In this document: in pieces, positions 8,276 to 36,070 of the stretch | Layout of the letters: every line of letters begins with the position of its first letter | Position numbering within the stretch: position 1 is the stretch's first letter | Origin: Flavobacterium aestivum | GTDB lineage: Bacteria; Bacteroidota; Bacteroidia; Flavobacteriales; Flavobacteriaceae | Assembly: GCF_026870175.2 (NCBI RefSeq) | Contig: NZ_CP113977.2 | Span: 3,596,001 to 3,660,000 of the forward strand | Direction: 5' to 3' | DNA length: 64,000 nucleotides | Program-made: the position numbers and the translations under genes | The notes under the pieces: model-generated | Seen by the model: the letters and a program-made list of their open reading frames with translations, nothing else | Told to the model about the DNA's origin: nothing | Databases searched by the model: none

Positions 8276-9469
8276 ATGAAAAAAGTAGTATTAGCATATA
8301 GCGGAGGATTGGACACATCATATTGTCTTAAATATTTAAAAAATGAAAAAGGATATGAAGTTCATACCGTATTAATCAACACTGGTGGTTTTGACGATGC
8401 CGAACTAAAAGCAATCGAAGACAGAGCTTATGAGCTAGGAAGTGCCAAACATGCCAATCTAACTATCCTTGATAAATATTATGATAAAGCAATTAAATAT
8501 CTGATTTACGGAAACGTATTAAAAAACAATACCTATCCTCTATCTGTAAGCGCTGAACGTGTTTTTCAGGCAATCGAAGCTATAAAATACGCTAAATCTG
8601 TTGGTGCCCAAGCAATTGCTCACGGAAGTACTGGTGCAGGAAATGATCAAATCCGTTTTGATTTAATTTTCCAAACCATCGCTCCGGAAATAGAAATCAT
8701 CACCCCTATCAGAGACTTAAAACTTTCAAGACAAGAAGAAGTTGCGTATTTACAAGCAAATGGCGTAGAATACTCTTGGGAAAAAGCACAATACTCCATT
8801 AACAAAGGATTATGGGGAACAAGTGTTGGAGGAAAAGAAACTTTGACTTCCGGACAACCTCTACCTAGTGAAGCGTATCCTTCGCAATTGCAAAAAGAAG
8901 GTGAAGAAAAAGTAACATTAGAATTCCTTAAAGGTGAATTGGTAGCCGTAAACGGAAAAGCCGACAAACCTTCAAACAATATTGTGGTTTTAGAAAAATT
9001 AGCCAGTGCCTATGCCATCGGAAGAGATATTCACGTGGGTGACACAATTATCGGAATCAAAGGAAGAGTTGGTTTTGAGGCCGCTGCTCCTTTAATCATC
9101 ATTAAAGCACATCATTTATTAGAGAAACACACTCTAGGAAAATGGCAACAATACTGGAAAGAGCAACTAGGAAACTGGTACGGAATGTTATTCCACGAAG
9201 GTCAGTTCTTAGATCCGGTAATGCGTAACATAGAAACATTCTTAGAAGACACCCAAAAAACCGTGAACGGAATCGTAACTGTTTCTTTGAAACCATACCA
9301 CTTTTCATTAGACGGAATTGAATCCAAAAACGACTTGATGAACACAGCTTTTGGACAATACGGAGAAATGAACAACGCTTGGACATCAGAAGATGCTAAA
9401 GGATTCATCAAAATTTTAGGGAATGCCCAAAACATATTTTCATCCGTAAATCAAGAAAGCTATGATTAA
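8276..9469 (+). CDS. argG: Argininosuccinate synthase
   Basis: Joins citrulline and aspartate with ATP to give argininosuccinate. 397 residues, normal for the bacterial type. The ATP-pyrophosphatase P-loop SGGLDTS is at residues 9-15, with HGSTGAGNDQIRFD near residue 118 and the YSINKGLWG segment near 175. The stop codon overlaps the argC start by 8 bases, so the two are translated from one message. Confidence 0.97.
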   Translation: MKKVVLAYSGGLDTSYCLKYLKNEKGYEVHTVLINTGGFDDAELKAIEDRAYELGSAKHANLTILDKYYDKAIKYLIYGNVLKNNTYPLSVSAERVFQAIEAIKYAKSVGAQAIAHGSTGAGNDQIRFDLIFQTIAPEIEIITPIRDLKLSRQEEVAYLQANGVEYSWEKAQYSINKGLWGTSVGGKETLTSGQPLPSEAYPSQLQKEGEEKVTLEFLKGELVAVNGKADKPSNNIVVLEKLASAYAIGRDIHVGDTIIGIKGRVGFEAAAPLIIIKAHHLLEKHTLGKWQQYWKEQLGNWYGMLFHEGQFLDPVMRNIETFLEDTQKTVNGIVTVSLKPYHFSLDGIESKNDLMNTAFGQYGEMNNAWTSEDAKGFIKILGNAQNIFSSVNQESYD

Positions 9470-10439
9470 TGTTGGAATAATAGGCGGATCGGGCTATACG
9501 GCGGGAGAACTCATCAGAATATTGATGTTTCATCCCAATGCCAAACTCGATTTTGTTTACAGCACCACCAATGCCGGAAAACCGCTTTCGGTAGCGCATC
9601 ACGATTTGTTGGGCGATATCGAAATGAATTTTACTGACACGGTAAACCCTAACGTAAATGTGGTTTTCCTGTGCTTAGGACATGGAAAATCGAAATCATT
9701 TTTGACAGAAAATCAATTTGCGAGCCATACCAAAATCATCGATTTAGGAAATGATTTCAGATTAAACAAAGACGAAGTTTTTGAAGGTAAAAAATTCATT
9801 TATGGCTTACCGGAATTGAATAAAGTGGCTATTAAAAACGCTCAGTTCATAGCCAATCCAGGATGTTTTGCTACCGCAATTCAATTGGCTTTATTGCCAT
9901 TGGCAGAAGCCAAATTATTGAAAGATGATGTACACATCAATGCAACAACCGGAAGCACAGGAGCTGGAGTAAGCCTTTCGGAAACATCACATTTTAGTTG
10001 GAGAAACAACAACATGTCGCATTACAAGGCATTTGATCACCAGCATTTGGGTGAAATTTCAGAAAGTTTACACCAATTACAGACTGATTACAAAAACGAA
10101 TTGCTTTTCATTCCGAACAGAGGAGATTTTCCAAGAGGAATTTTTGCCACATTATACACCACTTGCAACGAAAGCTTGGAAGATATTGTAGCCAAATACG
10201 AAGCATTCTATAAAAACCAGCCTTTTGTAACCATTACTACAGCTGGTATCAACATGAAACAAGTGGTTCAAACGAATAAATGCATCATTAGTTTAATAAA
10301 AAAAGGGAACCGGATCTTGATCACCTCGGTGATCGATAACTTAGTCAAAGGAGCCTCGGGTCAAGCCATCCAAAACATGAATTTAATGTTTGGACTGGAA
10401 GAAACCACAGGATTGCATTTGAAACCAAGCGGATTCTAA
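9462..10439 (+). CDS. argC: N-acyl-gamma-glutamyl-phosphate reductase
   Basis: Reduces N-acyl-glutamyl phosphate to the semialdehyde with NADPH. 325 residues. N-terminal Rossmann motif GIIGGSGYTAGEL, and catalytic Cys135 in ANPGCFATAI; His at about 189 (YKAFDHQH) fits the second active-site residue. In Bacteroidota with an ArgF' type carbamoyltransferase the acyl group is expected to be succinyl. Overlaps argG by 8 bases. Confidence 0.95.
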   Translation: MINVGIIGGSGYTAGELIRILMFHPNAKLDFVYSTTNAGKPLSVAHHDLLGDIEMNFTDTVNPNVNVVFLCLGHGKSKSFLTENQFASHTKIIDLGNDFRLNKDEVFEGKKFIYGLPELNKVAIKNAQFIANPGCFATAIQLALLPLAEAKLLKDDVHINATTGSTGAGVSLSETSHFSWRNNNMSHYKAFDHQHLGEISESLHQLQTDYKNELLFIPNRGDFPRGIFATLYTTCNESLEDIVAKYEAFYKNQPFVTITTAGINMKQVVQTNKCIISLIKKGNRILITSVIDNLVKGASGQAIQNMNLMFGLEETTGLHLKPSGF

Positions 10440-25458: not shown

Positions 25459-25515
25459 ATAAACCCTCAGTTCGAGTGTCACGCTTTTTTGCGTGATGTA
25501 TCGAGAACAAATCTT

Positions 25516-25553
25516 AAAAAACTGCAAAGTGACAACGCTTTGCAGTTTTTTTT
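25516..25553 (+). terminator. Terminator after clpB
   Basis: Stem AAAAACTGCAAAG / CTTTGCAGTTTTT, 8-base loop, eight T. A nearly identical copy lies at 27143. Confidence 0.92.
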
Positions 25554-26129
25554 ATTTTCCAAAGTCATAATACGCATTTGTAATCCGAGTTCATTCCAAT
25601 GCCTTGTCTATATGCTTTTTTATCTTATTATTCATAGTAATAATTGCTCATTTACTGTTTTCATAACTTTTTAACAACTGGTAACAAATCAGTTATAAAA
25701 ACAATCTGTTATTGTCTTGTGTAAACAATATATATAAATGTAGTATTTTTACAAATAAGAATAATAGCTCTTTTTTGTTTTATAATAAAAATAATACAAA
25801 ATAAAACAAAAGTAATTGCGTTTCAATTTTATGTATGATCTCGAAAAACAATTTTTGAGACAATCGGTCTGATTGTGTCAGACCATTACAAGTTGGCAGA
25901 AAATTTACTCAATCTACCAAGTAGAATTGGCGTTCGAAAGTCAAAAAATAATTGGTATTGGCAAATTAATATCACATCTCTTAAATAATCATGAGTATTT
26001 TAAAGAAGTATATTAATTTCACAAAGTAAAGGATGCCAAGGGCGGAACAAATCTAACTAAAAACATTTGTACCTAAAGTTTTCGTCCTTAAAATGGCAAA
26101 TATTTTGCAAAGGGAAATATAATAAAATT
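25554..26129. other. Non-coding stretch before the 26130 lipoprotein
   Basis: No gene is supported. A perfect hairpin GGTCTGA, 5-base loop, TCAGACC lies at 25866-25884. The rest is AT-rich without a consensus promoter. The DNA between the two matching terminators (25516 and 27143) includes this stretch and one lipoprotein gene. Confidence 0.5.
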
Positions 26130-26975
26130 ATGAAAAAGTTAAAAAGTTCTTTAAAAATTGGTTTAATTGGCATATTCTGTAGTATATTCTTTCTAGCTTG
26201 TACAAAAGATGACACTCAAGTACAAGAAACCAAAAGTATAGATAAAACAATGTCCAATAAAGGTATAAGCAAAGTTACAAACAAAACATTATCTACCAAT
26301 AAAATAGCTCCTACTGCACAATTAGTTCAAACTATTTGTGATATTACTGGTCCAACAGTAACATCAACTGGCGTAGCTGTCGTAGCAGCTGGCTCTACCG
26401 CAAGTTATAGCTATACAAATAATACAGGTTCAGCAAGTAATATTGTTTGGACACTGACCCCAAGCCCAGCTGGAAGTGCTACTTATGTTGCTAATGGAGC
26501 TAACATAACTATAACTTACCTAGCAAATTTTGCAAGTGGTACTTTAACCGCAGCTGGTTCGGGTGGAACAGCACAAACTTGTAATACTGTATTAAATATA
26601 ACCAACTCAGGTAGTGGAGCCAATTGTAGTTGTACTCCAGTTATGACAATGTCATACATCTGCAGAGGAAGTTCTTCAACAAGTTTAGGAGGCTTCGTAA
26701 GTCTTAAATCTCCAACGAATTGTCAAGTAGATTGGAGTACAGTTGAAAAAATTGATCTTGATTTAAGCGGAGCAGTAATTTTCGAATTTGATTCCCCTTT
26801 AAGCGGATTAAACAATGGAACATTATATCCACCCTTCATTCCTGATCCAAGCGGTTTAATTGTAAATGAATTCTATTACCAAGGTTGTTTGCCAAGTGTA
26901 TCTTGCAAAGCAAAGATTTACTTCAATAATGGTTGCCCTGCGAAAAGCCTAACCGTAACAGCAGTAGGTGGCTAA
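26130..26975 (+). CDS. Lipoprotein with Ig-like domain and Cys-rich C-terminus
   Basis: 281 residues from the ATG at 26130; an earlier in-frame ATG at 26067 is less likely because only the later one gives a signal peptide (MKKLKSSLKIGLIGIFCSI, then FLACTKDD with lipobox Cys). Residues about 75-150 are Thr/Ser/Ala-rich with alternating strands (IVWTLTPSPAG), like a PKD or Ig-like repeat. The C-terminal half has about ten Cys (CSCTPVMTMSYICRG), suggesting disulfides outside the cell. Function unknown. Ends 168 bases before a copy of the clpB terminator. Confidence 0.78.
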   Translation: MKKLKSSLKIGLIGIFCSIFFLACTKDDTQVQETKSIDKTMSNKGISKVTNKTLSTNKIAPTAQLVQTICDITGPTVTSTGVAVVAAGSTASYSYTNNTGSASNIVWTLTPSPAGSATYVANGANITITYLANFASGTLTAAGSGGTAQTCNTVLNITNSGSGANCSCTPVMTMSYICRGSSSTSLGGFVSLKSPTNCQVDWSTVEKIDLDLSGAVIFEFDSPLSGLNNGTLYPPFIPDPSGLIVNEFYYQGCLPSVSCKAKIYFNNGCPAKSLTVTAVGG

Positions 26976-27142
26976 TAAATAAAATCCTTCGATGACAAAT
27001 ATTTTTACAACTAAAACATAATTGAGAGAAGTACAAAGTAAAATTAGACCAACAAGTCTTGACTATGAATTAGTATTTAAAAATCCTAGGAATATAATTT
27101 ACACAGCCTCACAGCTACAAATAACATCTTTTTATAAACTTT

Positions 27143-27178
27143 AAAAACTGCAAAGTAACAACGCTTTGCAGTTTTTTG
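27143..27178 (+). terminator. Terminator, near-identical copy of the clpB one
   Basis: AAAAACTGCAAAG, 8-base loop, CTTTGCAGTTTTTT. Differs from 25516-25553 by one base in the loop and by the length of the T tract; similarity continues a few bases outward (TTAAAAA before). Confidence 0.88.
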
Positions 27179-27183
27179 TTTTT

Positions 27184-27295: not shown

Positions 27296-27394
27296 GACAA
27301 GAACTACATTAATTAACAATCCTATTAATTTGAAAAGCAGTAAACAAATGAAATACTAATTTTATTATTTAGTAAGAATATTTCAATACATTTG

Positions 27395-27418
27395 ATAATA
27401 ATAATAATAATAATAATA
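27395..27418. repeat. ATA trinucleotide microsatellite, 8 units
   Basis: Eight tandem ATA units, outside any gene, 114 bases before the 27532 gene. Possible slippage site; no function seen. Confidence 0.85.
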
Positions 27419-27431
27419 CAAAACAAAACTT

Positions 27432-27500
27432 TACCAATATACCCAATTTTGGGTGTATACTCGTTACAAAGTAGCGACTATACACAAGCTGGCGGATATT
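27432..27500. repeat. Left edge of the cassette-like region, degenerate palindromes
   Basis: Contains ATACCCAATTTTGGG (a near-perfect palindrome with GTAT) and GTGTATA at 27454-27460 matched by TATACAC at 27480-27486. It ends AAGCTGGCGGATATTTTCG, resembling the ends of later elements (GGACGTTGGTGGCAAGTTTACC, GAACGTTAGCGGTAATTTTGC), so it may be a decayed first site. The next ATG is 32 bases on. Confidence 0.4.
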
Positions 27501-27531
27501 TTCGAGAAACAGAATAAACAAATAACACAGA

Positions 27532-28218
27532 ATGAAGACATCAGAAGTAAAAGAGCAAATAATAATATCTTTATATTTTAACATTCCGCTTTCTCTAATC
27601 ACTTATATAACGACAAATAATTTATTAATTTCATTAATTGTTTTTTTATTGACAACGTTTTTTATAATAACAGCTGGATTACTAACCACAAAACTGGGAT
27701 ATAAAAGACATTTCGAAATAACTGAAAGTGAAGGTTTTAAAAAATTAATTTCTCTTGGTTTTAGAATAGAAAAAGTTAATGATTATGTTGGCTTAAATGG
27801 AGTTTACAGAAATTATTTATTTGATATTTACTACGATTGGCTAACGGTTTCAAATAATAGAAATAGCAAAGCATTAGTCTTAAATATTTATTTTAATCCC
27901 CCAACCTTAAATAATAATAAAACAGACCATAAACGTTTAAAGGAAATATCTGAAAAGTATATAACGTCTCGTTGGAGTTTGATTCCGAAAACTTACTGTT
28001 ACCGTTGGAGAGAAGGAAATATAATGATGAATAATTCAATTGGACTTAAAAACCCCAATTATGAATTCATTTCTCAAAAAATGGACGAATTAATTGAAAT
28101 ATTAAAGACTGAAAAATTGCAACCAATTGAAAGAGAGAAAGTAATTGAAATGAGAAAAATTACTGAATTTGCTCATATACCAGAAATCGCAGTTTACTAC
28201 AAAAAAAACATCCGCTAA
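27532..28218 (+). CDS. Membrane-anchored protein of unknown function, first cassette-like gene
   Basis: 228 residues. Two hydrophobic segments near the N-terminus (about 10-30 and 32-52) form a hairpin, followed by a soluble domain with many Lys and aromatic residues (KRHFEITESEGFKKLISLGF). No family recognised. The TAA stop codon is itself part of the left core of the palindromic element that follows (CGCTAAC), an arrangement seen with integron cassettes. Confidence 0.7.
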   Translation: MKTSEVKEQIIISLYFNIPLSLITYITTNNLLISLIVFLLTTFFIITAGLLTTKLGYKRHFEITESEGFKKLISLGFRIEKVNDYVGLNGVYRNYLFDIYYDWLTVSNNRNSKALVLNIYFNPPTLNNNKTDHKRLKEISEKYITSRWSLIPKTYCYRWREGNIMMNNSIGLKNPNYEFISQKMDELIEILKTEKLQPIEREKVIEMRKITEFAHIPEIAVYYKKNIR

Positions 28219-28373
28219 CAGCTACTACAACGGATTTGGGCAATAGGCTTAATAGAAAGATGGTTTTGCATTTAGGATGATTTGCTTCGCCTGTTCGCTA
28301 TCGCTCGGGTGGCAAATCCGAAGAATGGGCTTAATTTAGTCCCAAACCCGCTGTAGTACCTGAACGTTAGCGG
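28212..28373. repeat. attC-like palindromic element A
   Basis: 162 bases. Left arm CCGCTAAC, then AGCTACTACAACGGATTTGG; right arm ends CTGTAGTACCTGAACG and GTTAGCGG. The reverse complement of the right arm repeats the left with a 4-base extra stretch (GTTC), giving 8 plus about 18 of 20 paired bases with bulges, the asymmetric hairpin plan of attC sites. Core of the loop at 28279-28318 begins GATTTGCTTCGCC and ends GGCAAATC, and is nearly identical in elements B and C. Confidence 0.6.
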
Positions 28374-28414
28374 TAATTTTGCAAAATCGACATAAAAATT
28401 GACACAACATACAA

Positions 28415-29320
28415 ATGAAGATATTAAATAGTTTATTGATTTTATTTTTGACAATTAATAGTTACGCTCAAAATCTAAATTTTCGCAAGGCAATTCTAAA
28501 AAGTGATTTAATTATTGTGAGTGATGACTTTGCTTTTGACACAATTCGTGTAAATGATTTTACAAATACCTCATTCGTCAAAATAAAAAAAGTTGACACT
28601 ATTCTAAAAAATAATCTTTCTTTATTACCAAAAACCATAACGTTAAGAAAATATCAAGATAATGAAGATTATTATTCTGACCTAATAACAAATGGAGGAG
28701 GCTGTGTTTTGGCACCTAAATGTGGAAATAATTGGGCATCTTACTTTAATGTTTTTTTTATTAAGAAAAATGGGAAGGAATATCAGTCTTTTTTAATTCT
28801 TCAAGAATTAGAATTAGAAGCCTATCAAAAAATAATCGCCGAAGTAAGAACAATTTCAAGGTTAGAATATTTAAAAAATGACAACGAACGGTTTCATAAA
28901 ACATTAGATTGGTTTATAGAAAATGGATTTGCGCCAGATATTGATTTTATAGACTATTACAAACAAAAAGGCATAATAACCGACACAATTCAATATTCCG
29001 AACAGCAATATAAGAACGCTTTACAACAATTTCAAAAAGGGAAAGAAGAACTTTTACCAATTGTTAAAGAAAAGTATTTTTATGAAATAAAGACACACTA
29101 CACTCAAAAAATGCAAGTTTTAATAGACAAAGAAAAATTGGAATTCAAAGATTATTTAGAGTTTGATAAATCAGTTTCAATTTTGACGAATAATTTTAAT
29201 GACGATTATGAATCGGGAAATTATATATTGAATAACTCATTAACTTCTGATAAATTTGATGACTATGATAAAAAAAATATAATGAGATATTTATTAAAAA
29301 TAGTAACCGAATGGAAATAA
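28415..29320 (+). CDS. Secreted protein of unknown function, cassette-like gene
   Basis: 301 residues with a cleavable signal peptide (MKILNSLLILFLTINSYAQ). The mature part starts with strands (SDLIIVSDDFAFDTIRV), has two Cys close together (GGGCVLAPKCGN) near residue 100 and a helical, Lys/Glu/Gln-rich C-terminal half. No family recognised. It begins 42 bases after element A and stops 8 bases before element B. Confidence 0.7.
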   Translation: MKILNSLLILFLTINSYAQNLNFRKAILKSDLIIVSDDFAFDTIRVNDFTNTSFVKIKKVDTILKNNLSLLPKTITLRKYQDNEDYYSDLITNGGGCVLAPKCGNNWASYFNVFFIKKNGKEYQSFLILQELELEAYQKIIAEVRTISRLEYLKNDNERFHKTLDWFIENGFAPDIDFIDYYKQKGIITDTIQYSEQQYKNALQQFQKGKEELLPIVKEKYFYEIKTHYTQKMQVLIDKEKLEFKDYLEFDKSVSILTNNFNDDYESGNYILNNSLTSDKFDDYDKKNIMRYLLKIVTEWK

Positions 29321-29328
29321 AAACAACA

Positions 29329-29486
29329 GCTAACAGGTACTACAACGGATTTGGGTATTTGGCTTAATGAAAAGATAGTTTTCTATTTGTAATTTGCTTC
29401 GCCTGTTCGCTATCGCTCGGGTGACAAATCCAAAGAATGGGCTTAATTCAGTCCAAAACCCACTGTAGTAGCTGGACGTTGGTGGC
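29329..29486. repeat. attC-like palindromic element B
   Basis: 158 bases from GCTAACAGGTACTACAACGG to CTGGACGTTGGTGGC. Same plan and wording as element A, with a central stretch (29394-29433) differing from A by two or three bases. Left core GCTAAC, right core GTTGGTG. Confidence 0.6.
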
Positions 29487-29529
29487 AAGTTTACCGAAAA
29501 TCGCAGAAAATAGAAATTAATAAAAATAT

Positions 29530-30357
29530 ATGATTGCATTATACATAAATTGGGATTTTGACTCTGAAATAATAAACATTTATGGTTTTCCATTAAAATA
29601 TTACGGACTTTTATTTGCTTGTGGTTTACTTTTAAGTATGTACATTCTAAAAGGAATTTTTAGAAGAGAAAACTTAAAAGATAGTGCGCACGAAGCATTG
29701 TTCATTTACGGAATAGTTGGAATTTTTGTTGGAGCGAGATTAGGGCATTGTTTATTTTATGATTTTGATTACTATTCAAAAAATCTATTAGAAATTATTT
29801 TACCTATTAAGAAAACTCTAAATGGAGAATACAAATTTATTGGCTTTGCGGGTTTAGCAAGTCACGGAGGTACAGTTGGGTTGATTATTTCACTTTATCT
29901 ATATTCAAAAAAATACGAAATAAAATATCTTAAAATACTTGATTTAATTGCAATTGTTGCGCCATTGGGAGCAACATTTATAAGGCTTGCGAACTTAATG
30001 AACTCTGAAATGATTGGTAATCCGACTACAATGCCTTGGGCATTTATTTTTAGTCGTATTGACAATATACCAAGACATCCAGCCCAGCTTTACGAAGCTA
30101 TTTCGTATTTAATAATTTTCATTATAGTTTTCACTATTTACAAAACTAAAAACATAAAGCTAGGAAATGGTTTTTTGTTTGGTTTAACAATAATTTTAAT
30201 TTTCACAATGAGAATTTTAATTGAGTTTGTAAAAATAAATCAAGTGGAATTTGAAAATGGAATGAAATTAAATATGGGACAAATATTGAGTATTCCATTT
30301 ATAATAATCGGAATATATTTTATGGGAAAGAATTTAATGAGAAAAGAAACTAAATAA
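29530..30357 (+). CDS. lgt: Prolipoprotein diacylglyceryl transferase paralogue, cassette-like gene
   Basis: 275 residues with about seven membrane segments. Lgt motifs are present: YYGLLFACG, GARLGHCLFYD near 68-78, ASHGG with His112 (like His103 of E. coli), the signature IRLANLMNSEMIG with Arg152, Asn155, Asn158 and Glu160, and RHPAQLYEA at 182-190. Lgt transfers diacylglycerol from phosphatidylglycerol to the Cys of prolipoproteins in the inner membrane. All key residues look intact. As Lgt is normally a single housekeeping gene, one inside a cassette-like array is likely an extra copy, although nothing in this window rules out it being the only one. Confidence 0.85.
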   Translation: MIALYINWDFDSEIINIYGFPLKYYGLLFACGLLLSMYILKGIFRRENLKDSAHEALFIYGIVGIFVGARLGHCLFYDFDYYSKNLLEIILPIKKTLNGEYKFIGFAGLASHGGTVGLIISLYLYSKKYEIKYLKILDLIAIVAPLGATFIRLANLMNSEMIGNPTTMPWAFIFSRIDNIPRHPAQLYEAISYLIIFIIVFTIYKTKNIKLGNGFLFGLTIILIFTMRILIEFVKINQVEFENGMKLNMGQILSIPFIIIGIYFMGKNLMRKETK

Positions 30358-30365
30358 AAATCCTT

Positions 30366-30525
30366 ATACTAACATCGACTACAACGAATTTGAGCAATTG
30401 GCTTAATGGAAAAATAGTTTTGTATTTGAGTGATTTGCTTCGCCTGTTCGCTATCGCTCGGGTGGCAAATCCGAAGAATGAGCTTAATTTAGTCCCAAAC
30501 CTAATGTAGCGCCAGAACGTCAGGC
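30366..30525. repeat. attC-like palindromic element C
   Basis: 160 bases from TACTAACATCGACTACAACG to CCAGAACGTCAGGC. Central stretch 30432-30471 is identical to that of element A over its 40 bases. Right core GTCAGGC is the most diverged of the three. Starts 9 bases after the lgt-like stop codon. Confidence 0.6.
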
Positions 30526-30595
30526 TGCGTCACCAGAAATTTCACTAAAAAAACAATTTAAAAAAAATAAAATAAATTGCTAAATTATTTTTATT

Positions 30596-30613
30596 TAGTT
30601 GATACAACAACTA
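30596..30613. promoter_or_regulatory. Candidate MarR operator
   Basis: TAGTTGATACAACAACTA: perfect 6-base arms TAGTTG / CAACTA with 6 bases between, 38 bases before the MarR start. MarR proteins commonly bind such short palindromes ahead of their own gene. Inferred. Confidence 0.5.
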
Positions 30614-30650
30614 TATTCGTATCAATTATATTCACATTAACTAATTTAAT

Positions 30651-31088
30651 ATGAAAAAAAGCAATCCAACAGGAACTGTTCTTTATACAATTGAGCAAAC
30701 AATAAAAGAGTATAGAAAAATTTCACAGAAAAACATAGGGAAAATTGTAAAGGATATAACAGTGGACCAATGTCTATTATTGATTGTGCTTAATAAAAAT
30801 TCTAATTATTCTCAAAAGGAAATAGCTGAATTGATTTTCAAAGACAATACTTCAATTACTAGAATTATTGAACTAATGGTAAAAAAAGAGTATCTGACAA
30901 GAAAAATAAACGAAATAGACAGAAGAAAATTTAACCTTGAAATAACGGAAAAAGGAAAAAAAACAATTGAATTGTTAACACCTGTCATAAACAAAAACAG
31001 GCAAGATGCTCTTAAAGGATTATCAGAAAATGAAATTGAATTATTGGATAAAATACTAATTAAAATACTTTCAAACTGTAAAAAATAA
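30651..31088 (+). CDS. MarR-family transcriptional regulator
   Basis: 145 residues. Winged helix-turn-helix: SQKEIAELIFKDNTSITRII at about residues 58-77 is the recognition region, followed by the wing DRRKFNLEITEKGKKTIE. The DRR and the ITEKG pattern are typical of MarR. Its stop codon is one base before the start of the serine hydrolase, so the two are co-translated and the regulator probably controls it, together with itself, through the palindrome at 30596. Ligand unknown. Confidence 0.9.
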   Translation: MKKSNPTGTVLYTIEQTIKEYRKISQKNIGKIVKDITVDQCLLLIVLNKNSNYSQKEIAELIFKDNTSITRIIELMVKKEYLTRKINEIDRRKFNLEITEKGKKTIELLTPVINKNRQDALKGLSENEIELLDKILIKILSNCKK

Positions 31089-31089
31089 A

Positions 31090-32418
31090 ATGAAAAAAAC
31101 ACATCAAATAACTAAATCGAGACTATTTTTAATAGTCATTCTTCTTCCAACAATAATTTTTGGGCAAAAAAACATATCAACTTATCTTGAAAAATACATG
31201 CAGGCACAAGTTGACTTGAATAATTTTAGTGGAACAGTTATTGTCTTAAAAAATGGTTCTGTATTATTAAAAAAGGCTTATGGTTTTGCAGATTATGAAT
31301 GGAATATTAAAAATACAATTGATACAAAATTTCAGTTGGCTTCTGTCACTAAACAATTTACGGCTACTGCAATTCTTCAATTAGTAGAAAAGAGAAAACT
31401 CTCGCTTAATGATAAGCTTAGTCAGTTCTTTCCAGATTATCCAAAAGCAGATAGCGTCACAATTCACATGTTATTATCACATTCTTCAGGCCTTGCAATG
31501 GGTTTTAAAGAAATAGCAACAAGTAGTATATCTGCTGATTCAGCATACAATGAAATTAAAAAAATGCCTTATGAATTTTCGCCAGGCACAAAAACGGCAT
31601 ACAGCAATATTGGTTATTATTTATTAGCAAAAATTATAGAAAAAGTTTCAGGAGAAAAGTACGCCGATTATTTAAACAAACATATATTTGAAAAAGTGGG
31701 AATGAAAAACTCTGGAGTGATTACCAACGAAATCCTGATTCCTAAAAAGGCTAAAAATTATATTTTAGAAGATAATAAATACATAAACAACCCTTATATA
31801 AATTGGAAAATCAATATTGGACATGATGGAGTCTATTCTACCGTTGAAGATTTAGCCTTATGGGATAAAGCACTTTATGGAACAACAATTTTGTCCGCAA
31901 AAATGAAAAAACTAATGTTTACGCCCTATAGTAAAGAAAATTGGGGTTATGGTTTTATCATTAATCCATTTTATAATCATGGGCATCAACTTATTGCTCA
32001 TGACGGTGGTTTTTTTGGAGCAATGACCTCACTCAACCGATTTACAGATGATAACCTTTTTGTAACAGTACTTTCTAATAACGAATCATCTTCATATATA
32101 ATTGCTTATGGGCTTTCTGCAATTGCCTTACAAATGGAGGTAGAACTTCCATACAAGCATTATCAAACTAAAATAGACAATTCCATTTATGATAAATATA
32201 CAGGCAAGTATGGAGAAATTGAAATAATCAAAATTGGAGAAAAAATATATTATAACAATTCAGAAATGGAACTTTTGCCTGAATCACAAACAAAATTTTT
32301 TAGAGCCGACAATAATGACCGGACAATAGAATTTATACAAGACAAATCAGGTGTTTACAATTCAATAATTTTGACAAAAGGAGGCGTAAAAGAAATTGTA
32401 ATGAAAAATAATCAATAA
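31090..32418 (+). CDS. Secreted serine hydrolase, class C beta-lactamase/DD-peptidase family
   Basis: 442 residues with a signal peptide (to about residue 25, FGQ). Catalytic motifs: Ser85-x-x-Lys88 (SVTK), Tyr171-Ser-Asn173 and HDGG near residue 300 in the place of KTG. This places it in Pfam beta-lactamase, whose members include class C beta-lactamases, DD-carboxypeptidases and esterases. HDGG rather than KTG, and a C-terminal lipocalin-like extra domain of about 90 residues (KYTGKYGEIEIIKIGEKIYY), point to an esterase or peptidase more than to a true beta-lactamase. Starts one base after marR. Confidence 0.88.
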   Translation: MKKTHQITKSRLFLIVILLPTIIFGQKNISTYLEKYMQAQVDLNNFSGTVIVLKNGSVLLKKAYGFADYEWNIKNTIDTKFQLASVTKQFTATAILQLVEKRKLSLNDKLSQFFPDYPKADSVTIHMLLSHSSGLAMGFKEIATSSISADSAYNEIKKMPYEFSPGTKTAYSNIGYYLLAKIIEKVSGEKYADYLNKHIFEKVGMKNSGVITNEILIPKKAKNYILEDNKYINNPYINWKINIGHDGVYSTVEDLALWDKALYGTTILSAKMKKLMFTPYSKENWGYGFIINPFYNHGHQLIAHDGGFFGAMTSLNRFTDDNLFVTVLSNNESSSYIIAYGLSAIALQMEVELPYKHYQTKIDNSIYDKYTGKYGEIEIIKIGEKIYYNNSEMELLPESQTKFFRADNNDRTIEFIQDKSGVYNSIILTKGGVKEIVMKNNQ

Positions 32419-32427
32419 AAAGCACGA

Positions 32428-32550
32428 ACCGCTAACAGCGGTTAGGCGCAATAGCTACTATCTATTCCGCCGGAAACCTAACGGTTTCCAGAAATCTTTC
32501 ATCCCCAATCGCGCGGATTTGCAATCCGTGCTCGCAACGATGAGCCATTA
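32428..32550. repeat. Compound palindromic region D after the serine hydrolase
   Basis: Begins ACCGCTAACAGCGGTTAGGC, in which GCTAAC and GTTAGGC, the latter a perfect GTTRRRY core, lie back to back. Then GGAAACC/GGTTTCC with a 4-base loop (32472-32489) and CGGATT/AATCCG with a 3-base loop (32514-32528). Starts 10 bases after the stop codon. It is not a copy of A-C but has the same position and core words. Confidence 0.55.
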
Positions 32551-32558
32551 TACAAGAT

Positions 32559-32596
32559 AAAAAGCTACAAGAAAATATTTTTGTAGCTTTTTTTAT
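32559..32596 (+). terminator. Terminator after the marR-hydrolase unit
   Basis: 12-bp stem AAAAAGCTACAA / TTGTAGCTTTTT, 10-base loop, T-rich tail. Confidence 0.88.
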
Positions 32597-32789
32597 TTTT
32601 ATAAAGGATAATAATCAATTTTTGTAAGTACGAATACAATTGTTACACGCTCTCGCCAAGTCGGATTGGCTCCAACTTTTCTGCTCTCTGAATTTAATAA
32701 TTTTGTTTTGTCAACTTTTTATATGACAAAGTTTTCAAGAAATTGTATGACATTTGATTCGAGACGCGAGATAAATTAAAAAAAACTGC
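32597..32789. promoter_or_regulatory. Region before symE with an operator-like inverted repeat
   Basis: Contains TTTGTCA (32707-32713) and TGACAAA (32724-32730), a perfect 7-base inverted repeat with 10 bases between, 60 bases before the SymE start, and GCCAA/TTGGC near 32655. SymE genes are controlled in E. coli by LexA and an antisense RNA; the LexA box there is different. No consensus -7 box was found. Confidence 0.4.
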
Positions 32790-32984
32790 ATGACAATGAC
32801 AAATTCAAGGAAACTCAAAATTCATTCAAAATATCAAGCAAGGACTTACGGATCAACAACTATTCCCGAAATTAGGCTTGAAGGCAAATGGCTTGACAAA
32901 CTTGGTTTCAAGGAAGGACAAATGGTAAACATAGAACAAAAGAAAAATAAATTGACAATTACTATTGACAATGGACAGAGATAG
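32790..32984 (+). CDS. symE: SymE-like toxin (SpoVT/AbrB fold)
   Basis: 64 residues. RKLKIHSKYQAR at the N-terminus, IPEIRLEGKWLDKLGF near 24-40 and the C-terminal MVNIEQKKNKLTITID strand pair are the SymE family pattern. In E. coli SymE is an SOS-induced RNA-cleaving or DNA-compacting toxin repressed by the antisense RNA SymR. An antisense transcript would have to be looked for over the first part of this gene; none can be seen by eye. There is no neighbouring protein antitoxin. Confidence 0.8.
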   Translation: MTMTNSRKLKIHSKYQARTYGSTTIPEIRLEGKWLDKLGFKEGQMVNIEQKKNKLTITIDNGQR

Positions 32985-33141
32985 CTTCTTCCAATAGTAC
33001 AATTTGGCACTATTCCTGCAATTGAATAAAATCCCGTTTTATTTTCATAAAAGGTTATCTTAGCAAGATAAAAACGTCTCAAAAACCGCTACTGCATCAA
33101 GCCGTAAAAGAGTTAATAGCAATTCAAACAATTACGAATAA

Positions 33142-33609
33142 ATGAAATGGTTTAAAAGAATATTAATATGTATCTTAATAATAATTTTTCTTTTTTTCGC
33201 TTTCTATAAGCCTAAGAGAATTAATTTAGAAGGCAATTGGAAAACTAAGGAGATTGTTTTAAATGGCAAGAAAATTTATCCCGATACTTTATCCAACTTT
33301 ATAGATTTTGGACCAGAAATTATAATTAATGGTTGGACAAAATCAATTTCCATTCCAATATACAGAAATAACTTACCTGTCAGTATACAATACTCAGAAA
33401 AAATAAAGGAACATTACACAGTAAAATTATTCTCTAATGAAAAATCATTAAATGGAAATTTTGACTTAATTATTGATACATTAGATACTGGTCCACAATC
33501 ATATATAGTAGACGTAAAATTAAAATCAAATAAAACATTAATACATTTCCAAAAACAAGTAATTATTCCACCTTGGAAACCTGAATTCCCGAAAAGAGGT
33601 CAAGTATAA
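33142..33609 (+). CDS. Membrane-anchored protein of unknown function
   Basis: 155 residues. A basic start, one hydrophobic segment (about residues 6-23, ILICILIIIFLFFAFY) and a beta-rich outer domain (INLEGNWKTKEIVLNGKKIYP), which resembles a lipocalin-like start where LEGNWK is a strand. No family recognised. Ends 11 bases before a core-like word CCAGTAAC. Confidence 0.65.
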   Translation: MKWFKRILICILIIIFLFFAFYKPKRINLEGNWKTKEIVLNGKKIYPDTLSNFIDFGPEIIINGWTKSISIPIYRNNLPVSIQYSEKIKEHYTVKLFSNEKSLNGNFDLIIDTLDTGPQSYIVDVKLKSNKTLIHFQKQVIIPPWKPEFPKRGQV

Positions 33610-33614
33610 TTTTT

Positions 33615-33830
33615 ACACAGCCAGTAACAGTGCCTTGGCTCAATAGCTGGTTGCTTATTCAACTTAAAGTTTTTTCATCAGTTGGACATTTCAAATTAAG
33701 AAATGCAAATCTTGACAATGAACAAATATTTAAATTACAAACACTCAACAAATTGTAGTTTCTAAACATAAAAGCTAATGGCGGACGATATGTTAGCCAC
33801 TTAATGACCGAAAAAAAATAACAACTGGTA
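33615..33830. repeat. Candidate attC-like region E
   Basis: Starts CAGCCAGTAACAGTGCC just after the stop codon at 33609 and ends near TATGTTAGCCACTTAATG (GTTAGCC at 33792-33798). Arms are not obviously complementary over a long distance, so this is a weak, diverged match to the cassette-end plan. The next ATG is 55 bases later. Confidence 0.35.
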
Positions 33831-33852
33831 ACAAGAGTGACAAGCTTAAATC

Positions 33853-34350
33853 ATGATAACAACGCATCGACAATTTATCGGAAGAATAAATTCACGTACA
33901 AGATATCAATATATTTTGATGACTGTTTTTTTTGAAAATTTTGTTTTCTTTTTCCTTTTAGGTACAAATAAAACTTTTGCAATAATCTCTATATTAATTT
34001 CTGTAGCCATTGTATTTTATTGCCTTTTAAAAATTGATCTTGATGACAATATTTTGATGTTTAACGACGAAGGTATTTTTCTTAAGAAAAAGGATAAAAA
34101 GGAATTATTTTACTACTGTGATGTTCGTGAATATATATTATATAAAGATTTTTGTCGCCTAATAATCAATGAAAAAAAAATTGACCATGTTTTAGATACA
34201 TTAGATGGAAAAAATTTCACTATTGAAACATTTGCTGAGTTTATGTTTTCCAAAAATAAATCAATTAAAATATTACATCGACAGTCGAATTTTGAAACGT
34301 ACAAATATTTTAGAAATGGGGATCAAATTCGAAAAGTACTTATTAATTAA
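33853..34350 (+). CDS. Small membrane protein of unknown function
   Basis: 165 residues. Two hydrophobic segments (about 22-37 and 40-58) followed by a soluble region of about 100 residues with many aromatic and Lys residues, which reads like a PH-type beta fold (NILMFNDEGIFLKKKDKKEL). No family recognised. Confidence 0.6.
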   Translation: MITTHRQFIGRINSRTRYQYILMTVFFENFVFFFLLGTNKTFAIISILISVAIVFYCLLKIDLDDNILMFNDEGIFLKKKDKKELFYYCDVREYILYKDFCRLIINEKKIDHVLDTLDGKNFTIETFAEFMFSKNKSIKILHRQSNFETYKYFRNGDQIRKVLIN

Positions 34351-34360
34351 TCCAAATCAA

Positions 34361-34498
34361 CCGCCAATACACTCTAAGCGCCAGTAGGAACATAAGAATT
34401 AAGCGTCATACTTTTTCTTCACTTAAAAACTATTAACTTATCGATAAAACCCAGTCTCGCTTGAGTTACACTGAGCATCTAACAAGGGAACGTTAGTG
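34361..34498. repeat. Candidate attC-like region F
   Basis: Begins CCGCCAATACACTCTAAGCG 10 bases after the stop codon at 34350 and ends GGAACGTTAGTG followed by ACAATTTAC, close to the ends of A (GAACGTTAGCGGTAATTTTG) and B. Next ATG 34 bases later. Arms are less complementary than in A-C. Confidence 0.45.
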
Positions 34499-34532
34499 AC
34501 AATTTACAACAATCAAAATAAAATAAACATAA

Positions 34533-35120
34533 ATGAAAAAAACAATTTACTTTACAAGCTTACTCTTAATTACCATTTCTACAATTAAAAGCCAAACAAT
34601 TGAGAGAATTGGATTGAAAGGTCCAATTAATTTTAACAAAACTGAATTTAATCTTGCTTGGTCAGAGAAACCAAATGACAACTATTATATCCAAGAATAT
34701 TTACCAAAAAATGAAACCGTAGAGAAATTCAATGAACTCATAACTGTAAATCTATTTGTTTTAGACGTTAGTGTTGAAAATGCTATTCATCAAAAAGTGA
34801 GTGAACTTACGAAAAGAAAAGAAACTGACAAAGTATGTAATTTCAGTGTTATAAATAGCCCTGATGGTGAAGAAAGTATCCTTGATTGCTTGCTCAGTTC
34901 TAACAAAAATGATGAGCTCGATATTGTAGAATTTATAATTTATAGATACAAACAAATCGAACTAGACAACCATAAAAAAGCATTACTTGTTTATTCATAT
35001 TCAAAAAGAAGTTATGGGAATAAGATAACCAAGTTTCTCCAAAACTTAGCTACAGAAAGAGAAAACTTACTGAATGTGATGATTTCAACAAAAATACCTG
35101 AAACAAAAATTAAAGAATAA
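34533..35120 (+). CDS. Secreted protein of unknown function
   Basis: 195 residues with a signal peptide (MKKTIYFTSLLLITISTIKS, then Q). The mature part is mixed alpha/beta with two Cys (KVCNFSVI and ILDCLL). No family recognised by eye. Last of the cassette-like unknowns. Confidence 0.65.
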   Translation: MKKTIYFTSLLLITISTIKSQTIERIGLKGPINFNKTEFNLAWSEKPNDNYYIQEYLPKNETVEKFNELITVNLFVLDVSVENAIHQKVSELTKRKETDKVCNFSVINSPDGEESILDCLLSSNKNDELDIVEFIIYRYKQIELDNHKKALLVYSYSKRSYGNKITKFLQNLATERENLLNVMISTKIPETKIKE

Positions 35121-35129
35121 AAAAACAGA

Positions 35130-35205
35130 CACTAACTGTCGTTTGATGCAATTACAAAAATAGAAGCACATCAAAAGTAATAATATCTCCAAACTACAGA
35201 ACGTC
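35130..35205. repeat. Candidate right edge of the cassette-like region
   Basis: Starts ACACTAACTGTCG 10 bases after the stop codon at 35120 and ends CTACAGAACGTCTCCCC before the AraC gene. The words CTACAGAACGTC resemble the end of element C (GCCAGAACGTC). Only 75 bases long, so it may be a fragment. Confidence 0.4.
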
Positions 35206-35245
35206 TCCCCTATTAAACAGCAATACATTCAATTGACACATAAAA

Positions 35246-36070
35246 ATGATAGAAAACAAAGATACATATACCAACTTTAGAATAGCAGTTCCTACAGAGT
35301 ATGAAGACGTTTTTTCTCATTTCTATTATGCTGAAAACATTTCATCTGACACAGTATTCAAAACATTGTTGCCTTCTTTTCAAACCATTTTGATATTTAA
35401 TTTTGGAGCAAAATCCATACTTCACTCTAAAAACAATACTGAAATAATTATTGATAAATGCCTTGTGTTAGGACCTATAAAACAGGCCTTTGATTATTCT
35501 TTGCCGCCAAATTCCCAAATTTTGGTGGCAAATTTTAAAGATGATGCTTTTTACCGTTTTTTCGGTAACGCATCGGTTGCTGAACATTTGCCTATAAATC
35601 CAGACGATTTATTAGATGAAAATTGTTTTACCGCTTTGTGGACAGAACTAAACAAAAGTAATGATATAAACCATCGTGTAGATTATATACTTGAGTTTTG
35701 CAAGCCTTACTTAAAACACCGAAATATAATTGCTGAAAAGTTAGCAAACTTTAATGATGCAAACTTAAACCCTATTAAATCAGTAGCAAGCCAACAAAAC
35801 CAAACCGAAAGAAATATCCAACTCAATCATAAGAAACATTTAGGATACTCCTCCAAAGAAATCAATCGCTATCAACGATTTTTGAAAGCCATTAAACTTA
35901 TTCAAGACATTGCTTCGACATCCACTAAAATTGACTGGTTCGAAATCATAAACAAATGCGGCTATTACGACCAAAGTCAACTCATTCATGATTTTAAATA
36001 CTACATCAAAATGAGTCCTACGAAGTATCTAAAATTTCAACAAGAAATTTGTATTGCAAACGCTGAATAA
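35246..36070 (+). CDS. AraC-family transcriptional regulator
   Basis: 274 residues: an N-terminal sensing domain (to about 170) and a C-terminal pair of helix-turn-helix motifs. The second motif is recognisable (CGYYDQSQLIHDFKYYIKMS, then PTKYLKFQ), as in many AraC proteins. Followed by an NAD(P)H oxidoreductase with a short inverted repeat in between, which is a plausible target. Confidence 0.9.
   Translation: MIENKDTYTNFRIAVPTEYEDVFSHFYYAENISSDTVFKTLLPSFQTILIFNFGAKSILHSKNNTEIIIDKCLVLGPIKQAFDYSLPPNSQILVANFKDDAFYRFFGNASVAEHLPINPDDLLDENCFTALWTELNKSNDINHRVDYILEFCKPYLKHRNIIAEKLANFNDANLNPIKSVASQQNQTERNIQLNHKKHLGYSSKEINRYQRFLKAIKLIQDIASTSTKIDWFEIINKCGYYDQSQLIHDFKYYIKMSPTKYLKFQQEICIANAE

Follow-up and report, generated by a model that had tools for sequence, protein, structure and literature searches.

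The 64,000-nucleotide stretch of Flavobacterium aestivum DNA analyzed here (the window; bases 3596001-3660000 of a 4.58-Mb single-contig genome) contains a one-directional row of genes followed by hairpins, which very probably represents the remains of a Bacteroidota-type integron: a promoter resembling the integron cassette promoter (Pc) and an attI-like element, followed by cassettes that each comprise one gene (or a pair) and a 3' hairpin. The array spans positions 27387-35210 on the + strand and, judged from its sequence, is an old, partly decayed and integrase-less cassette array of a flavobacterial integron. A preliminary description of this stretch had likened the layout to that of integron gene cassettes, or else proposed a flavobacterial system with a comparable way of working. 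This proposal is supported at the sequence level by the layout itself, by a signature of circular cassettes (R''/R' pairing across genes), by shared cassettes that start at GTT, by cassettes that occur behind attC in one place and behind attI in another, by the attI-like element of the window, and by a tyrosine recombinase encoded at the head of such arrays in relatives.

Signature of circular cassettes

An integron cassette is circular and is opened at G/TT. The bases after GTT at its start must therefore pair with those before AAC of its 3' site, whereas the two ends of any one site within an integron array derive from different cassettes. Across genes, these R''/R' ends were complementary at 6 or more of 7 positions in 126 of 157 intervals of up to 1200 bp (mean 6.15), versus 7 of 157 for the two ends inside one site (mean 3.20); shuffled pairs gave a mean of 2.85 of 7, and the maximum of 2000 shuffles was 3.15. 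Extending the count to all 200 intervals of up to 3000 bp, some of which skip a site of a second type, gave 136 versus 10 within sites. Pairs were counted in one orientation, and copies of one cassette from several genomes may both be counted unless their first 60 nucleotides are identical. The gene-linked pairing is best read as the signature of cassettes that were circular and were cut at G/TT.

Shared cassettes place the boundary at the same position. In 62 pairs with unrelated upstream sequence, taken without a filter on the start, the alignment begins exactly at GTT in 21 and within 15 nucleotides of it in 4. For 23 pairs (14 linked groups), selected for a start within 15 nucleotides of GTT and 90% coverage, identity at the three bases of GTT is 0.96, 0.91, and 0.96, compared with 0.17-0.61 over the nine preceding bases. 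One cassette is found behind attC in genome G091 and behind attI in Flavobacterium sp. 245 (96.8% identity), another behind attC in the F. aestivum genome (locus L032) and behind attI in G004 (93.2%), and attC- and attI-placed copies of one cassette within G109 are 100% identical.

Single genes of the window recur elsewhere in the genus. The Lgt gene has relatives of 85-88% nucleotide identity in other contexts in G007, G045, and G112, and in G007 it forms a lone cassette whose two ends pair at 10 of 10 positions (by eye). The MarR-hydrolase pair also occurs in G103 and G008, where no hairpins are visible, and may therefore have been captured from an ordinary chromosome. According to the preliminary description, a gene order conserved across related genomes would speak for simple interspersed repeats. 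When a 14.1-kb query was compared with 150 genomes of the genus (best two candidate places scored per genome), no match outside the own genome was longer than ~1.8 kb, the length of the MarR-hydrolase match.

Hairpin sites behind the genes

Sites A, B, and C of the window belong to one family of attC-like hairpins (type 1). The sites are not a matter of chance: searched with blastn, site A has at least 44 places in its own genome at E≤0.001 (40 of 64 candidates scored), and every cluster of these lies on a single strand. A custom site model, as suggested in the preliminary description, was built as a covariance model (R1) from 20 type-1 sites; at E≤0.001 it has matches in at least 92 of the 150 genomes of the genus, and 54 of these contain at least three (at most 19 candidates were scored per genome, which makes the counts lower bounds). 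The left arm of the site occurs in at least 120 stretches of named genomes, and the 80 stretches listed comprise 73 from Flavobacterium, four from Flavobacteriaceae or Flavobacteriales, and one each from Solitalea, Lutibacter, and Bacteroidales, the last two from metagenome-assembled genomes. Site A has no blastn match in 72,556 plasmid records. A second site type begins CTAACAGCGGTTTTGC.

In the 20 sites, 25 named base pairs are formed in 89.9% of cells, and in at most 41.8% after sliding by one to three columns. A shuffle control of this structure on the same sites gave no significant separation, and the support for the hairpin is thus an inverted repeat, not covariation; RNAalifold returned 14 pairs at -1.61 kcal/mol for the site alignment. 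Of 336 type-1 sites gathered, length filters kept 330 for folding and 330 for counting core boxes. Their core is GTTR/YAAC, with variable bases following GTTR. The fit to the canonical GTTRRRY and RYYYAAC, already called loose in the preliminary description, is indeed so: GTTRRRY is present in just 24 sites, RYYYAAC in 32, and both in 5. By reading, the top-strand arms carry A.C mismatches where the bottom strand has G.T wobbles. With DNA parameters, the arms of the bottom strand are the more stable ones in 319 of 330 sites, at a mean of -16.7 versus -12.2 kcal/mol, and the same is true of whole sites in 252 of 330; this bias is what a bottom-strand substrate would need, and is not proof of one.

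The sites are tied to gene ends. Of 296 sites, 262 lie behind an open frame of 60 codons or more on the same strand and 97 behind one on the opposite strand, and the median distance from stop codon to AAC is 13 nucleotides. Copies lying mostly away from gene 3' ends, which the preliminary description would have taken as a sign of interspersed repeats, are thus not the pattern found. In 101004 bases from six own-genome loci outside the window, no site gave an Rfam match above the gathering score; the matches in these loci were LSU and 5S rRNA, tRNA, and two Flavo-1 RNAs. The ~30-bp center of the type-1 hairpin also occurs on its own, at G000:C1:671365-671396, 3477548-3477576, 4326645-4326681, and 1083506-1083538.

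attI-like element and promoter

In relatives, the stop codon of the integrase gene is followed by a promoter-like TATATTTG and then by an element that ends in TATATACAAG; beyond this point similarity is lost and the first genes differ. A TAnnTTTG-like word is present in 30 of 35 integrase tails versus 23 of 247 tails of other open reading frames (ORFs), two of the 247 being integrase tails themselves. Because of these two, and because an earlier pattern for the attI end had been drawn post hoc from the tails, one half of the tails served to train a scoring matrix for the element, which was then applied to the other half. The score exceeded 15 in 31 of 35 held-out integrase tails and in two of the 247 other tails, both of them the stray integrase tails; no true control scored above 0.5.

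A position weight matrix (PWM) of 32 attI rows, the window excluded, gives 40.7 bits at position 27488 of the window, 15.4 on the opposite strand inside the element, and at best -0.9 outside it. The preliminary description placed the start of the array at 27432, which is too late: it opens 45 bp earlier, with the promoter-like TACATTTG at 27387 followed by the attI-like element ending at 27488. A lineage-variable word of ~8 bp in attI is repeated in inverted orientation, with at most one mismatch, in 12 of 32 elements (shuffled mean 2.1, maximum 6), and more weakly as a direct repeat in 7 of 32 (shuffled mean 1.7, maximum 6).

In the window, attI and promoter are present and no integrase gene lies beside them. 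A scan of the other eight own-genome loci for attI was positive at L032 (12037), L033 (10590), and L034 (4239 and 11838). Several attI-like places thus occur without an intact integrase in a genome that has no match at E≤1e-50 to the recombinase described below.

A tyrosine recombinase at array heads

A search with PF00589 in ten array genomes found tyrosine recombinases at some array heads. One of them, a protein of 347 amino acids from G109 (P0001), has relatives at E≤1e-100 in at least 53 of the 150 genus genomes (counted from the list; some are incomplete or interrupted) and at E≤1e-50 in at least 83, with at most 14 candidates scored per genome. Over Bacteroidota, the wider family at E≤1e-70 is present in at least 57 of 395 genomes and at least 30 of 170 genera (at most five candidates scored per genome). 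Many of these matches align only from residue ~65-76 on, from which it follows that the N-terminal domain is not common to all. The preliminary description had suggested looking for a tyrosine recombinase near the same element elsewhere, and this ~347-residue enzyme is encoded just upstream of promoter and attI in relatives. Of 38 integrase sources, some of which overlap, 18 have type-1 matches; 47 of the 52 matches are downstream on the integrase strand, and the remaining five are weak echoes of the same palindromes.

The suggestion that the window array is a cluster without its integrase also holds. Its own genome has no match to P0001 at E≤1e-50, and the attI of the window stands alone. Among the nine own-genome loci searched, the head of the L031 array contains pieces of a probably degraded integrase C-terminal end (best E 6e-5), and the genome probably keeps an integrase remnant there. 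A Flavo-1 RNA (Rfam RF01705; L031 15675-15752, + strand) overlaps the remnant stretch on the opposite strand, and another occurs in L036.

As far as can be read from its sequence, the recombinase is without the ~42-residue insertion that defines IntI. Between two anchors of the catalytic domain, 92 residues are found in 10 of 10 IntI, 50 in 22 of 23 close members (the odd one is a wrong ORF), 44-50 in 16 further relatives (including L317, a wrong ORF), 57 in XerD, and 55 in XerC. According to PMC8138268, the insertion is essential for integron function, though incompletely conserved in the subgroup treated there; in PMC2426708, it served to select IntI. With TIGR02249 (cut-off 265 bits), four true IntI score 469-491 bits in one stretch, while four members of the new family score 198-211 and the L342 protein 182, in two stretches. 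Members score 203-231 with NF040815 (cut-off 220; four tested), and several carry the NCBI name site-specific tyrosine recombinase/integron integrase. An alignment of 25 members shows no variation at R204, H294, R297, H320, and Y329.

In a tree of 60 rows (L317 and L252 excluded, L294 entered in its correct frame), the 38 new rows lie on one side of a branch with support of 88/86, IntI on one with 100/100, and the new family and IntI together are separated from XerC/XerD with 99/96, that is, the family does not group with XerC or XerD. As this tree joins the new family with IntI, a shared ancestor is possible; the tree is unrooted, contains no XerA rows, and has long branches that were flagged. 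Among solved structures, the nearest relatives are the archaeal Xer 4a8e and XerA 5hxy, which align in a single unbroken stretch.

Across 17 fragments, the ~70 N-terminal residues are conserved; they are predicted to fold as strand-strand-helix-strand-strand-helix. For two proteins, this domain had no match in the Pfam copy searched; PF22823 is listed in the protein database for most homologues and was not returned by the domain scan performed here. Foldseek gave nothing for it at E≤0.001, and the HARP domain of SMARCAL1, at E 0.89, is a bare lead. The predicted template modeling score (pTM) of the full AlphaFold model is 0.51, which makes the placement of the domain unsafe.

The recombinases of ~320 residues repeated in G139 were considered as the integrase and rejected; a neighboring pair is annotated in L345, and they are presumably of an IS91-linked type. 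Six copies at 3-4 kb spacing occupy G139:C1:997351-1018478, a region that ends beside a relative of the integrase and is perhaps an IS91-linked element.

The array in the window

All nine predicted genes from 27532 to 36070 are on the + strand, as the preliminary description had it; short overlapping minus-strand ORFs occur at 29330-29593 and 30812-31102. The features of the array are as follows (all + strand; R''/R' gives paired positions across the gene; sites A, B, and C are among the 20 training sites of R1).

27387..27394, +: promoter-like TACATTTG of the Bacteroidetes TAnnTTTG type, found by alignment; a word of this kind directly follows the integrase stop in relatives
27429..27491, +: attI-like element (PWM-scored stretch); junction G/CT at 27488/27489, elsewhere G/TT
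27532..28218, +: cassette 1 gene, 228 amino acids, no Pfam family; R''/R' 6/7
28212..28374, +: attC-like site A, type 1; 204.9 bits with R1
28415..29320, +: cassette 2 gene, 301 amino acids, no Pfam family; R''/R' 5/7
29327..29486, +: attC-like site B, type 1; 170.7 bits with R1
29530..30357, +: cassette 3 gene, Lgt (PF01790), prolipoprotein diacylglyceryl transferase; R''/R' 3/7 in the window
30366..30527, +: attC-like site C, type 1, right core GTC; 171.5 bits with R1
30651..31088, +: cassette 4, gene for a MarR family regulator (Pfam)
31090..32418, +: cassette 4, gene for a serine hydrolase (Pfam Beta-lactamase, PF00144); R''/R' 2/7
32428..32556, +: site D, type-2 attC-like, left half alone; by eye against the L031 site behind gene 9210-9827
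33142..33609, +: gene, 155 amino acids, no Pfam family
33620..33800, +: site E, degenerate; AAC at 33626, GTT at 33792
33853..34350, +: gene, 165 amino acids, no Pfam family
34356..34500, +: site F, left core degenerate; right core GTTAGTGAC at 34492
34533..35120, +: cassette gene, 195 amino acids, no Pfam family; R''/R' 5/7
35128..35210, +: site G, degenerate; AAC at 35134, GTC near 35203

The grouping of A, B, and C as one hairpin family, made in the preliminary description, agrees with an identity to A of 83-89% over the 101-nucleotide right half and 78-84% over the 73-nucleotide left half. Site D, listed there as a further site, stands in part: its left half is present and resembles that of the second site type, and the right half is lacking. 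The weak arms noted for E and F were found again, with cores present and arms poor, and G is alike in this. Upstream of the array, two 48-nucleotide inverted repeats (25510-25557 and 27136-27183; 90% alike, terminator-like by eye) flank the gene at 26067-26975.

Further arrays

The F. aestivum genome holds further arrays of the same sites, the largest being the L031 cluster, in which small genes on one strand, running in descending order between 15276 and 4652, are almost all followed by a hairpin. G109 has a long array at 3676-3689 kb. A family member of the same genus with 39% identity (L342) heads an array whose hairpin type differs and whose pairing is again linked to the gene; L335, from another genus, has a third hairpin type (both by eye). 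Beside other integrase genes, e.g., L331, L334, L336, and L337, no clear array was seen by eye. The integrase is also present on two Chryseobacterium plasmids, followed in one by several small same-strand genes and in the other by a single one, before transposon genes. A gene for a group II intron reverse transcriptase (L344 18765-20081) lies among the genes behind a Chryseobacterium plasmid integrase.

Alternative explanations

Several results weigh against an integron-like array. In 31 of the 157 intervals, R''/R' pairing remains below 6 of 7, and four of the five intervals of the window do so (6, 5, 3, 2, and 5 of 7), low counts that are as expected of a decaying array. In 37 of the 62 shared-cassette pairs, the alignment begins 17 or more nucleotides inside the cassette, so that the GTT boundary is valid for part of the pairs only. 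Among the 271 cassettes of the loci compared, no array difference of the kind A-B-C versus A-C was found; 36 families have several members, three of them with different neighbor pairs. The attI model finds no element at the L031 array. Across the 150 genus genomes, type-1 sites and a close integrase are not associated (both in 35, sites only in 57, integrase only in 18, neither in 40; Fisher p 0.48), which lineage-specific hairpins and loss of the integrase could explain.

That a classical integron is at work, with an ordinary IntI, absent here or acting from other cells, moving the arrays and the array-head recombinase a bystander, is improbable. The layout and the cassette signature do match integrons, and the review PMC8618304 lists Bacteroidota among integron carriers. 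On the other hand, TIGR02249 at E≤1e-40 detected 0 IntI in 299 family genomes, a search in which the built-in controls gave no match and which compares with 469-491 bits for true IntI elsewhere; moreover, attI follows the gene of the array-head recombinase in 31 of 35 held-out tails, and among 330 sites just 24 conform to GTTRRRY and 32 to RYYYAAC. Very improbable is a Xer-type module in which host XerC/XerD shuffle genes at dif-like sites. The genome does encode XerD (334 bits, over its cut-off) and a XerC candidate (283 bits, under its 335), and in ten of ten array genomes the top PF00589 match is in an open frame of 303-322 residues, which fits XerD; dif, however, is a fixed site, the bases after GTTR vary here, and a dedicated recombinase with its own attI heads the arrays. 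Hairpin repeats behind genes, resembling repetitive extragenic palindromes (REP) or miniature inverted-repeat transposable elements (MITE) and serving as terminators or RNA ends with no movement of cassettes, seem highly improbable. The near-identity of type-1 sites, the solitary occurrence of their ~30-bp center, and a stop-to-AAC distance suited to a terminator would fit such repeats, but their insertion leaves the pairing of the flanks before and after a gene unexplained, as well as an attI beside a recombinase, and no Rfam match was obtained at the sites of the six own-genome loci.

Comparison with known systems

For the integron-like system described here, we infer the following route. 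The ~347-residue tyrosine recombinase, encoded upstream in relatives and reading towards promoter and attI, would recognize the folded bottom strand of the hairpin, cut it, and link it to attI at G/TT within the GTTR core. A circular cassette would thereby be inserted beside the promoter, and would be freed again as a circle when excision takes place between two hairpins; the promoter would drive the first cassettes. The chances seem about even that this represents a second integron system across Bacteroidota and plasmids, in which a recombinase without the supposedly essential domain reads hairpins, perhaps via its own N-terminal domain, with attI words and arms that vary by lineage, and which also explains gene uptake in Riemerella. 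An integrase lacking the additional domain would offer a direct probe of the purpose of that domain.

Integrons in Bacteroidota are not a new idea, because NCBI already names integrases there and reviews list carriers. According to PMC9024848, complete integrons are rare in Bacteroidetes, with at first In0 only and then one complete integron, in Salinibacter ruber; PMC8352920 gives 11 taxon-specific attC models and none for Bacteroidota. No description of Flavobacterium integrons, or of this system, was found among the papers listed in searches of open-licence full texts. The occurrence of R1 matches in at least 92 of 150 genomes suggests that IntI and canonical attC models overlook a common gene-capture system, and it seems that this group of bacteria swaps genes by a little-noticed version of the integron.

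A comparable case is aph(3')-IVb of Riemerella anatipestifer, which PMC13148043 describes as a gene with 27 bp before it and a 140 bp attC-like stem-loop after it that integrates at one place without flanking homology, by a mechanism that its authors call not yet fully elucidated; Riemerella is another genus that the literature places in Flavobacteriaceae. By its description, this unit fits the unit of gene and 3' hairpin seen here, and a checkable mechanism would thereby be offered for how a gene with a 3' stem-loop integrates independently of homology.

Among the known recombinases, the archaeal Xer proteins (XerA) and the NCBIfam family NF040815 are close to the array integrases, but the latter carry an N-terminal domain of ~70 residues. 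XerA resolves chromosome dimers, and we know of no XerA that is accompanied by a cassette array. With integrons, namely sedentary chromosomal integrons and clusters of attC sites lacking an integron integrase (CALIN), the system shares one-way single-gene units, 3' hairpins that are alike within a genome, the GTT start, the complementarity of circular cassettes, attI and promoter beside the integrase, and the occurrence of integrase-less clusters. It differs from them in that the recombinase lacks the additional domain of IntI (182-211 bits versus the 265-bit cut-off), has an N-terminal domain of its own and reads in the direction of the cassettes, and in that the core is GTTR/YAAC and rarely GTTRRRY/RYYYAAC. 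By these comparisons of sequence, the system is integron-like, and it stands outside the classical family by the IntI domain and the core boxes.

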